Positions 33,256-36,498 of a DNA stretch of 41,625 nucleotides are shown here, in pieces; within the stretch, counting starts at the first letter, position 1; every line of letters starts with the position of its first letter. Below the pieces are notes generated by a model that was not told where the DNA came from, made no database searches, and saw only the letters and a program-made list of their open reading frames with translations. Source of the stretch: Candidatus Gastranaerophilales bacterium (GTDB lineage: Bacteria; Cyanobacteriota; Vampirovibrionia; Gastranaerophilales; Gastranaerophilaceae); assembly GCA_947625345.1 (NCBI GenBank), contig CANQNX010000008.1, positions 1 to 41,625 of the forward strand. The letters run 5' to 3'. The position numbers and the translations under genes are program-made.

Positions 33256-33323
33256 AAAATCTGATTACAAAAATATAGTTATATGATAGAATTAACTAAC
33301 AAAGGAACTTAAGGAATACAATA

Positions 33324-34697
33324 TTGTTTGAAAAGTTTACGGAAAAAGCGATAGATATAGTAAAATCAGCTCAGATACGAGCTATTGAAATGAATCATGA
33401 GAAAATATATCCCGAACATTTACTGATATCATTGTTAAATGATTCTAACAGTATAATTGTAAAAACATTAGGGATATATAAGGTTGAAATAAATGAAATA
33501 AAAAAAGAGATTGAAAAAATTTTAAATAAAAGAGCCGTTATAAATCCCGTAGAATTTGTTGTATTCAGTGATTCTTCAAAGGATATATTTAACAGAACTC
33601 TTGATATAGCTAAGTTATTAGGCAATTCATATGTTAAACCCGAGCATATATTTTTAGCCATTTGGGATTATCCGAAGTTAGAATTGGTAAATGTATTAAA
33701 ATCAAGAGGAATAGATGTAGATAAAATGAAGGAAATGTTCTATAACATTTTATCGGCAAATAAACCAAAAAAAGTGAAACATCCTGAAGAAATTGAAAAA
33801 AGAAGAAGAAATGACAAATCGGAAAGTATACTTTCAATATTAGAAAGTTCAGACAGTGCAAAAATATTTGACAGAGCAATAGCTAAATTATCCACCTCAA
33901 ATTATGAGATATTAGGTACGGAACAGATAATGCAATCTATATTAGAAGATAGTGAATCCGAATTAAATAAGACACTGTCAGGTTTTGGAATAACACCGGA
34001 AACTTTTTCAAGCAAACTAAAAGAAATATCCTCAAGGCAAGCGGAATTTGGGGACAGGCAAATAATTTTCACACCGAATGCACTAAAAACATTAATGTGT
34101 GCATTAGATATAGTAAGAGAAGAAGGTTATGCATCAATATTACCCGAGCATATAATATTAGGCATTTTAAAATCAAAAAAAGGTATAGCATACAACATAT
34201 TAAAAGAACTGAATGTAAATGAGTATTTATTGGAAGAAAAAATAATGCAGCCAATAGAGAAGCAAGTCAATGAAACATTGTATATAATGAGGCTTGCGAA
34301 GCAGGAAGCGAGGAGAATAGGCAACTCAACGGTAGGTTCAGAGTTAATACTATTAGGAATAGTATTGGAAGCTAACAGTATAGCTGCTGAAGTATTAAGA
34401 GATTTAGGTGTAATAGTAAAAGATGCCCGTGAAGTAATAGAGGAATTAATAGGAATAACCGATGACTATTCATCAACGGGAGAAATCACCTTCAGTCAAA
34501 GAGCGAAATTAATACTTGAGGATGCTTGGAATATAGCGAAATCACAGAATAAATCAAAAACGACTGCAGATGATTTGTTAATTGCGATATGCAATCAACC
34601 CGATTCAGTTGCGATGAAAGCATTAACAAGATTAGGGGTAGATGAACTTGAAATCAGACAGGGAATTAAAAACAAGCTTGAAAGCATCAGAATTTGA
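33324..34697 (+). CDS. Stand-alone protein with three tandem Clp N-domains (six repeats), no ATPase
   Basis: 457 residues made almost wholly of Clp N-terminal repeats. Six units can be counted: 1-68 (FTEKAIDIVKSAQIRAIEMN then YPEHLLISLL), 79-145 (KPEHIFLAIW), 178-236 (GTEQIMQSIL), 247-312 (LPEHIILGIL), 316-378 (VGSELILLGI), and 388-455 (TADDLLIAIC). Two repeats form one Clp_N domain, so there are three domains, linked by a basic stretch (146-166). No Walker A or B motif or AAA+ module is present, unlike ClpA/ClpC/ClpB. Free Clp_N proteins are known as ClpT subunits in chloroplasts, but three in one chain is unusual. The start is TTG with an AAGGAA site. It overlaps the rlhA-like gene by 56 bases at most. 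Confidence 0.85.
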   Translation: MFEKFTEKAIDIVKSAQIRAIEMNHEKIYPEHLLISLLNDSNSIIVKTLGIYKVEINEIKKEIEKILNKRAVINPVEFVVFSDSSKDIFNRTLDIAKLLGNSYVKPEHIFLAIWDYPKLELVNVLKSRGIDVDKMKEMFYNILSANKPKKVKHPEEIEKRRRNDKSESILSILESSDSAKIFDRAIAKLSTSNYEILGTEQIMQSILEDSESELNKTLSGFGITPETFSSKLKEISSRQAEFGDRQIIFTPNALKTLMCALDIVREEGYASILPEHIILGILKSKKGIAYNILKELNVNEYLLEEKIMQPIEKQVNETLYIMRLAKQEARRIGNSTVGSELILLGIVLEANSIAAEVLRDLGVIVKDAREVIEELIGITDDYSSTGEITFSQRAKLILEDAWNIAKSQNKSKTTADDLLIAICNQPDSVAMKALTRLGVDELEIRQGIKNKLESIRI

Positions 34698-36498
34698 ACT
34701 TTTAGTTCCTGCTAATAATAAAAATACGGCAATACAAGCAATAAAAGCAGGTGCTGATGCCGTATATATAGGTTATTCTAAATACGGAGCAAGGGTACAA
34801 GCCGGCAATTCACTTGAAGATATAGCTGAAGTTATTAATTTTGCCCACATATACAATGTAAAAATATATATTACATTAAATACAATATTAAAAGATGACG
34901 AAATAAGCAAAATGGAAAAGCTTATAAATAAGCTTTATAAAATAGGCGCTGACGGAATAATAATTCAGGATATGGGGATATTAAAATGTAATTTACCGCC
35001 TATAAAACTTATAGCCAGCACTCAATGCCATAATAATACGGCAGAAAAAATAAAATTTATGGAAGAAACCGGTATTTCAAGAGTAATATTACCGAGAGAA
35101 TTAAGTTTAGATGAAATAAAAGAAATAAGGAAATCCGCGAATATAGAATTGGAATGTTTTATACATGGTGCATTATGCGTGTCATACAGCGGTCAATGTT
35201 ATTTAAGTTATGCAATAGGAAAAAGAAGCGCTAATCGTGGAGAATGCGCACAGCCTTGCCGAAGAAAATATACGCTTAAGGATGCAAATGGGAAAACCAT
35301 AATCAGAAACAAACATTTATTAAGTTTAAAAGATTTGAATTTATCGGAAAAACTTGAAGATTTAATATTGAACGGAGTAACTTCATTTAAAATTGAAGGA
35401 AGATTAAAAAATGAAACATATGTCATAAACAATACGGCATATTACAGACAGGCAATAGATAAGATATTAAATAATTATGGTTTAAAACGCTCATCTGACG
35501 GAGAATCAATCCAAGACTTTGAACCTGATGTTAATAAAACCTTCAACAGAGGATACAGCTTATTTAATTTTGAAGGAAAAAAACAAGATATTGCAACAAT
35601 AGACTACACTTCATCCATCGGAGAATATGTGGGAGTGGTTAAATTTGTGAAAAAAAATTACTTTTCACTCAATACAACCATGCTCAATAACGGAGACGGC
35701 ATCTGCTTTTTTGATGAAAATAATGAATTAAAAGGAACAAATATAAATGTAACTGACGGAAATATTATATACCCCGCATCCATAAAAGGAATAAAAGAGG
35801 GTATAAAAATATACAGAAATTATGATAAAGAATTTGAAGATAAAATAAAAAACTGTAATTTAGAGAGGAAGATTCCGGTTAAAATCAAGGTCAGAGAAAC
35901 AAAAAATGATTATATGTTTATCATAGATGATAATAAAGGCAACAGCGCCTGTTATTTAACTGATAAAAATTATGAACCGGCAATAAATAAAGAAAAAGCA
36001 ATTAATACTTTAATAATACAGCTGACTAAATCCGGTAATACGGAATTTAAAGCGGAGGAAACAGATATAAAAATCGACAATATTCCGTTTATAAAAGTTG
36101 CAAGAATAAATGAAATAAGAAGAAAATTAACATCAAAATTAAAAGATATAATAATAAAAAATTACAAAAGATATGAACAAAAACCAATAAAAAAAGTTGA
36201 GTATCCGATAAAAGAATTAGACTATAAAGCCAATATATATAACGAGAAAGCAGCCGAATTTTACAAAGAAAGAGGCTGTATAATAAAAGAGTATGCGCTT
36301 GAAACAGGGCTTAAAACAAAAGATAAAGATTTAATGACCTCAAAATATTGTATTAAAAATCAATTAAAATTATGTCCCAAACAAACACCTATAAATAAGT
36401 ATAAAGAACCCTACGTCTTAATAGACGAATTCAACAAGGAATATCTTGTTGAATTCAGTTGTAAGGATTGTGTTATGAAAATCAGGAGCAAAGATTAA
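34642..36498 (+). CDS. rlhA: U32-family protein, RlhA-type 23S rRNA C2501 hydroxylase candidate
   Basis: 618 residues. The U32 signature ECFIHGALCVSYSGQCYLS begins at residue 171, and further cysteines (GECAQPC) follow. A middle DUF3656-like region and a C-terminal LMTSKYCIKNQLKLCPKQ with C570, C578, C607 and C610 match the RlhA (YdcP) end rather than the shorter TrhP (YegQ) type. U32 proteins of this kind were called peptidases, but in E. coli RlhA hydroxylates cytidine 2501 in 23S rRNA; prephenate and iron-sulfur supply are reported requirements. The start is uncertain: ATG 34642 or TTG 34678; both lie in the end of the Clp_N gene. Its stop overlaps the convergent secreted protein. Confidence 0.8.
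   Translation: MNLKSDRELKTSLKASEFELLVPANNKNTAIQAIKAGADAVYIGYSKYGARVQAGNSLEDIAEVINFAHIYNVKIYITLNTILKDDEISKMEKLINKLYKIGADGIIIQDMGILKCNLPPIKLIASTQCHNNTAEKIKFMEETGISRVILPRELSLDEIKEIRKSANIELECFIHGALCVSYSGQCYLSYAIGKRSANRGECAQPCRRKYTLKDANGKTIIRNKHLLSLKDLNLSEKLEDLILNGVTSFKIEGRLKNETYVINNTAYYRQAIDKILNNYGLKRSSDGESIQDFEPDVNKTFNRGYSLFNFEGKKQDIATIDYTSSIGEYVGVVKFVKKNYFSLNTTMLNNGDGICFFDENNELKGTNINVTDGNIIYPASIKGIKEGIKIYRNYDKEFEDKIKNCNLERKIPVKIKVRETKNDYMFIIDDNKGNSACYLTDKNYEPAINKEKAINTLIIQLTKSGNTEFKAEETDIKIDNIPFIKVARINEIRRKLTSKLKDIIIKNYKRYEQKPIKKVEYPIKELDYKANIYNEKAAEFYKERGCIIKEYALETGLKTKDKDLMTSKYCIKNQLKLCPKQTPINKYKEPYVLIDEFNKEYLVEFSCKDCVMKIRSKD

Follow-up and report, generated by a model that had tools for sequence, protein, structure and literature searches.

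A Protein of Three ClpC-Type N-Domains without an AAA+ Module, Conserved across the Gastranaerophilales

RESULTS

A Gene Composed of Clp N-Domains

The window (the whole stretch of DNA that was analyzed, 41,625 nt) contains a 457-codon open reading frame that runs without interruption or frameshift from a TTG codon at 33324 to a stop codon that ends at 34697. The gene, its parts, and its downstream neighbor are as follows.

33311–33316, + strand: AAGGAA, a Shine-Dalgarno-like (ribosome-binding-like) sequence 7 nt upstream of the TTG, read directly from the sequence
33324–34697, + strand: gene for the 457-aa triple Clp N-domain protein, TTG start, stop at 34695–34697 (reading frame, Pfam, orthologs, AlphaFold2)
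33324–33770, + strand: D1, residues 1–149, ClpC-type N-domain with the canonical MFE(K/R)FTEKA start (model, structure matches, alignment)
33771–33848, + strand: D1–D2 linker, residues 150–175, low pLDDT and the fastest-evolving part (model, dN/dS analysis)
33780–33788, + strand: invariant His-Pro-Glu (HPE), residues 153–155, within the linker (37 of 37 orthologs)
33849–34262, + strand: D2, residues 176–313, the most diverged N-domain (model, profile scores, domain alignment)
34263–34694, + strand: D3, residues 314–457, the most ClpC-like and most conserved N-domain (structure matches, tree, alignment)
34678–36498, + strand: gene for a U32-family protein, probable start TTG at 34678, which gives a 20-nt overlap with the Clp_N frame (34678–34697)

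The only Pfam family found in the protein was Clp_N (PF02861), in six stretches (E 1.6e-49, 166 bits against a curated cut-off of 20.7), and no AAA family matched the 457 residues at E ≤ 1. Because each Clp N-domain is a two-repeat unit, the six halves correspond to three domains. An AlphaFold2 model based on an alignment of 37 orthologs (pLDDT 83.3, pTM 0.60) contained three helical units, with borders at about 1–149, 176–313, and 314–457, separated after the first by a poorly predicted linker (150–175). The initial annotation had described six repeats spanning the 457 residues and three Clp N-domains with no AAA+ module, and both descriptions are borne out, the units covering the chain apart from the linker. 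It was also correct to state that ClpA, ClpB, and ClpC carry one such domain each. Hsp100/Clp unfoldases have one or two AAA+ modules with Walker motifs, whereas here three N-domains fill the chain.

The model has the helical double-repeat fold of Clp N-domains: in the leading matches it aligned with the N-domains of ClpC, ClpB, and Hsp104 at Z 17–23 and an rmsd of 1.2–2.5 Å. D3 matched the N-domain of Arabidopsis ClpC1 (5gui) at Z 23.4 and 1.5 Å over 147 residues, and D1 matched the N-domains of Hsp104, ClpB, and ClpC2 at Z 17–19. Several of the D3 alignments included D2 residues ~262–271 in place of the ClpC N-terminal strand, which is a weak hint, from one model, that D2 may pack on the D3 groove. 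The HPE tripeptide, invariant in an otherwise variable, low-confidence linker, resembles a short linear motif with a putative partner.

Throughout the genus, the gene is adjoined by the U32 gene and, nearly always, by a convergent 194-aa reading frame (orf194). The neighbors change between families, and in all other families they differ from this arrangement; no clp gene lies beside the triple Clp_N gene in the loci compared. Because the neighbors differ in all other families, gene context gives no function. We therefore rejected an operon with U32 or with truB/infB as a functional clue, and the U32 gene is outside the mechanism proposed below.

The Gene Is Nearly Universal in One Order

We searched with a profile built from 37 orthologs and found a full-length match (E < 1e-100) in 189 of the 193 sampled Gastranaerophilales genomes, which are the genomes of the same order counted in the class table; the named relatives are Candidatus Gastranaerophilales. 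Two distant orthologs that were scanned each contained six Clp_N stretches as well. The remaining four genomes (G247, G260, G040, and G314) gave matches at the level of ClpC only. In G247 the gene is cut by a contig end. G260 contains a 143-aa D1-like reading frame (L116; G260:C47, 1114–1545, − strand), and we read the stretch after it and found no D2 or D3; the triple protein may here have been cut down to a single domain. In G040 (8 contigs, 99% complete), Clp_N was present in ClpC and ClpB only, and the triple gene appears to have been lost. As G040 retains ClpC, ClpB, and ClpP, the protein has been dispensable at least once.

Outside the order, none of 96 genomes from other orders of the class scored above ClpC level, and in a survey of the phylum 0 of 213 Cyanobacteriota genomes passed E 1e-48. 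In seven other families of the class (f9–f15, one genome each), Clp_N occurred almost only in ClpC- or ClpB-sized frames.

Orthologs are of the same length and are 75–86% identical within the genus and 35–45% identical for more distant members. Nei-Gojobori analysis gave a dN of 0.09–0.18, a dS above 1.5, and a dN/dS of about 0.05–0.1, which is approximate because dS is near saturation; judged from these sequences, the gene is under strong purifying selection. The protein is single-copy across the order. In G016, an assembly flagged as 9% contaminated, a second full-length copy (45% identical) was found in two places with identical scores (G016:C18 and G016:C41), and it is probably a foreign bin or a duplicated contig. 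A recent gene fusion or an artefact of metagenome assembly was rejected, as the architecture is identical in 189 of the 193 genomes. We place very high confidence in the anatomy and distribution of the protein.

The Three Domains Derive from ClpC-Type N-Domains

The top NCBIfam match had suggested that the protein derives from ClpB, but profile scores and a tree of single domains reject this origin. D1 scored 113–119 bits with ClpC profiles versus 46–81 bits with ClpB profiles, and in the tree all three domains fell on the ClpC side, with ClpB split off at 100/100 and D3 nearest ClpC. D1 (93/81), D2 (100/99), and D3 (100/100) each formed one clade across the order, which indicates that the architecture arose once. 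Full-length three-domain matches and domain-wise clades define an order-level ortholog group. These sequences are most simply explained if ClpC-type N-domains were assembled once, before the order diversified, and the gene was passed on vertically thereafter. The N-domain of ClpC is almost unchanged in lineages without the triple protein, and no co-evolution signal is visible.

Mean conservation across the order is highest in D3 (53.5% identity), followed by D2 (41.5%) and D1 (39%). Identity with ClpC is 28% for D1 and 24% for D2 of the window protein, and the mean for D3 across the order is 43%. These values bear on the possibility that the protein is a holdase or peptide-binding scaffold independent of Clp, in which generic binders of unfolded chains were recruited from ClpC and no longer touch it. 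The drift of D1 and D2 and the lack of linkage to clp genes are in keeping with such a role, and the N-domain grooves of ClpB and Hsp104 do bind unfolded proteins (cited in PMC12583610). However, the identity of D3 to ClpC and its retention of most anchors exceed what a generic binder needs, and we consider this explanation quite unlikely.

ClpC Ligand-Site Residues Are Distributed over the Three Domains

ClpC is kept in its resting state by its N-domain, in which R9, R122, and K85 touch the M-domain and AAA1, and N-domain sites that take part in this also bind adaptors and phospho-arginine (pArg) substrates (PMC12583610); the positions known to matter are T7, R9, E32, K85, and E106 (PMC12583610), together with F2, F80, and E89 (PMC10030653). 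In the domain alignment, D1 retains the equivalents of T7, E32, F2, F5, F80, K85, and E106, with Lys for R9. D2 retains those of E32, F80, T81, P82, and E106 and is without the K85 anchor, F5, and the N-terminal FxxFT strand. D3 retains E32, F80, T/S81, R83, and K85, as well as E106 outside this genus (Asp within it). The E89 contact is absent from D1 and D2, and D2 and D3 lack much of the N-terminal strand that forms the groove. We take T81 to be the second-repeat equivalent of T7; this position is Thr in D2, Ser in D1, and Ser or Thr in D3. Of the pArg-pocket pairs T7/E32 and T81/E106, the E32 and E106 types are mostly retained, and T7 is present in D1 only. As far as alignment can tell, most of the residues of the pArg pocket, the groove, and the resting-state anchors of ClpC are retained, but they are distributed over three domains.

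Across the order, nearly all of the six half-sites carry a residue of the Glu32/Glu106 type, as would be expected of a pArg reader that acts without ClpC. D2 and D3 lack the Thr7 partner, however, and the arginine-kinase family (PF00217) gave no match in 38 genomes. No control genome was positive either: Bacillus subtilis, which we take to encode ClpC and McsB, was positive for ClpP and negative for both Clp_N and the arginine-kinase family, so the McsB negatives are untrustworthy. A pArg reader of this kind is highly improbable.

Antimicrobial peptides abound in the gut, and the free N-domains could instead be a decoy or sponge that protects ClpC by capturing toxic peptides or natural products able to hijack the N-domain of ClpC. 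The groove phenylalanines would allow this, F2 and F80 being retained in D1 and F80 in D2 and D3 of the genus, and the ClpC2–cyclomarin pair provides a precedent (PMC10030653). Against this, D1 and D2 no longer have the E89 contact, the groove strand is largely missing in D2 and D3, and the protein has no N-terminal dimerization domain of the ClpC2 type. The near-universal occurrence, single copy, and slow evolution of the gene across the order are also easier to reconcile with a core function than with an arms race. We regard this role as unlikely.

The Genome Encodes Intact Clp Machinery and No Detectable ClpS

An intact ClpC is encoded elsewhere in the genome (contig C20); it is 813 aa long, contains AAA modules and a UVR motif, and has the sequence LGF at the expected position of the ClpP-binding loop. 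The genome also contains an 877-aa ClpB-like frame (contig C51) and two full-length ClpP loci. A broken or frameshifted ClpC was rejected, since ClpC is intact elsewhere and the orthologs keep the length of the reading frame. Together with the intact frame and the lack of an AAA match, this supports the earlier judgment that a hidden AAA+ module or a ClpC remnant is unlikely. In the S. aureus ClpC resting state, the partners of the N-domain anchors are E435/F436 of the M-domain and E359 (PMC12583610). The ClpC of this genome retains the equivalents of all three, and D356 is Pro (numbering mapped on the B. subtilis chain).

ClpS, a frequent adaptor of Clp N-domains, was not found in any of 38 relatives or in any additional genome of the order that we searched, and control genomes were positive. 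Most of the class's other families lack it too, and its loss is therefore not linked to the triple protein. A ClpS sponge is thus unlikely in this lineage. Of the initial proposal, a free multivalent form stands, as there is neither a hidden AAA+ module nor a ClpC remnant, whereas ClpS must be dropped as its partner.

DISCUSSION

A Possible Accessory of ClpC/ClpP

We propose that the triple protein serves ClpC/ClpP as a trans-acting accessory, gathering substrates or tuning ClpC, a reading drawn by analogy that we advance tentatively and rate at somewhat short of an even chance. The three domains would offer ligand sites of the ClpC N-domain type, namely acidic Glu32/Glu106 pockets, a hydrophobic groove, and basic R9/K85 anchors. 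With such sites, the protein could collect unfolded or tagged substrates, and at the M-domain and AAA1 it could compete with the N-domains of ClpC or take their place, which would tune ClpCP activity. D3 would be the likeliest docking module towards ClpC or ClpC ligands, because it is closest to ClpC and most conserved, and D1 the likeliest receptor for substrates or peptides, because its N-terminal strand and groove are intact.

The intact ClpC, the two ClpP loci, the retained sites, and the precedents of ClpT1 and ClpC2 count in favor of the accessory role, and the lack of clp linkage, the absence of a co-evolution signal, and the loss in G040 count against a role directed at ClpC. Docking in the manner of ClpC is uncertain, as the anchors appear partly lost (K85 in D2, the N-terminal strand in D3, and D356 in ClpC). 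A stronger version, in which the protein is a dedicated control subunit whose detached trivalent N-domains compete for the M-domain/AAA1 anchors and for substrates, and so set the balance of resting and active ClpC across an order in which no ClpS was found, seems to us rather doubtful.

Plastids descend from a cyanobacterial ancestor to which this lineage is related, and two ClpP loci are present; on another reading, the protein would sit on the ClpP ring, as an accessory like plastid ClpT, and control its assembly or the docking of chaperones. ClpT1 and ClpT2 are stand-alone Clp N-domains that match the model at Z about 19. However, the closest matches in fold and sequence are the N-domains of ClpC rather than ClpT, and ClpT is reported from algae and plants only (PMC7966870) and has one N-domain versus three. 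A place on the ClpP side is decidedly unlikely.

Should the protein bind ClpC or ClpC ligands, a whole order would have a regulator of a central protease that was made by detaching and triplicating the protease's own recognition domain, and the ClpC N-domain would have a natural use as a free multivalent receptor beyond actinobacteria and plastids. The ClpC N-domain is a current drug target and BacPROTAC handle. As a near-universal, order-restricted, single-copy protein, the triple protein also provides a clean molecular marker for the Gastranaerophilales.

Comparison with Known Clp_N Proteins

Stand-alone Clp_N proteins are already known, and an architecture without an ATPase is not in itself new. 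Keyword searches of the literature for stand-alone or tandem Clp_N proteins returned nothing relevant, and we found no literature on the Clp proteins of Gastranaerophilales; the order-wide, fixed triple form appears undescribed in the literature searched. The suggestion in the initial annotation that a free form could be a sponge, a collector, or a ClpC regulator is plausible by analogy, as there are precedents in ClpC2 (PMC10030653) and ClpT1 (PMC4243950).

Searches of phages, viral contigs, and plasmids gave partial matches of about one domain, and none in phages or plasmids covered 80% of the protein. Actinobacterial plasmids carry proteins annotated as "Clp protease N-terminal domain-containing." The mycobacteriophages Myrna (gp251, NC_011273.1) and Phabba (MF668280.1/NC_054714.1) carry Clp N-domain-like genes that match D3 over ~120 residues and are possible phage-borne decoys of host ClpC.

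Family f8, another family of the class, also encodes proteins with Clp_N repeats only and no AAA+ module, such as two neighboring proteins in G057 (L095, 1654–2958 and 4302–6791, − strand) of 434 aa (four stretches) and 829 aa (at least five). They differ from the triple protein in the number and arrangement of repeats, occur as several paralogs per genome, and are not collinear orthologs. The same genome encodes a 482-aa protein in which a Clp N-domain is fused to a Ser/Thr protein kinase domain (L096, 1400–2848, − strand).

The triple protein resembles the N-domain of ClpC, a class I Hsp100, in fold (Z 21–23 with 5gui, 3wdc, and 5hbn), two-repeat unit, most ligand-site residues, and tree placement, but it has three copies per chain and no AAA1 linker, ATPase, M-domain, or ClpP loop. 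Actinobacterial (mycobacterial) ClpC2, a partial ClpC homologue, is likewise a stand-alone Clp N-domain without AAA+ (8ad9, Z 17.7 to D1). ClpC2 acts as a molecular sponge that competes for a ClpC1 ligand; it has a four-helix dimerization region ahead of its single N-domain, binds cyclomarin, and binds and represses its own promoter (PMC10030653). In the triple protein, by contrast, the first of three N-domains starts at residue 1. Plastid ClpT1 and ClpT2, which have a double Clp-N motif, share with it a stand-alone N-domain (4y0b/4y0c, Z about 19), and ClpT is a Clp accessory: ClpT1 binds to Hsp100 chaperones and raises the ATPase activity of ClpD (PMC4243950). ClpT has one N-domain (two motifs), is reported to be restricted to algae and plants (PMC7966870), and is 20–24% identical in structural alignment, whereas the triple protein is bacterial and has three domains. 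The triple protein is a member of neither ClpT nor ClpC2.
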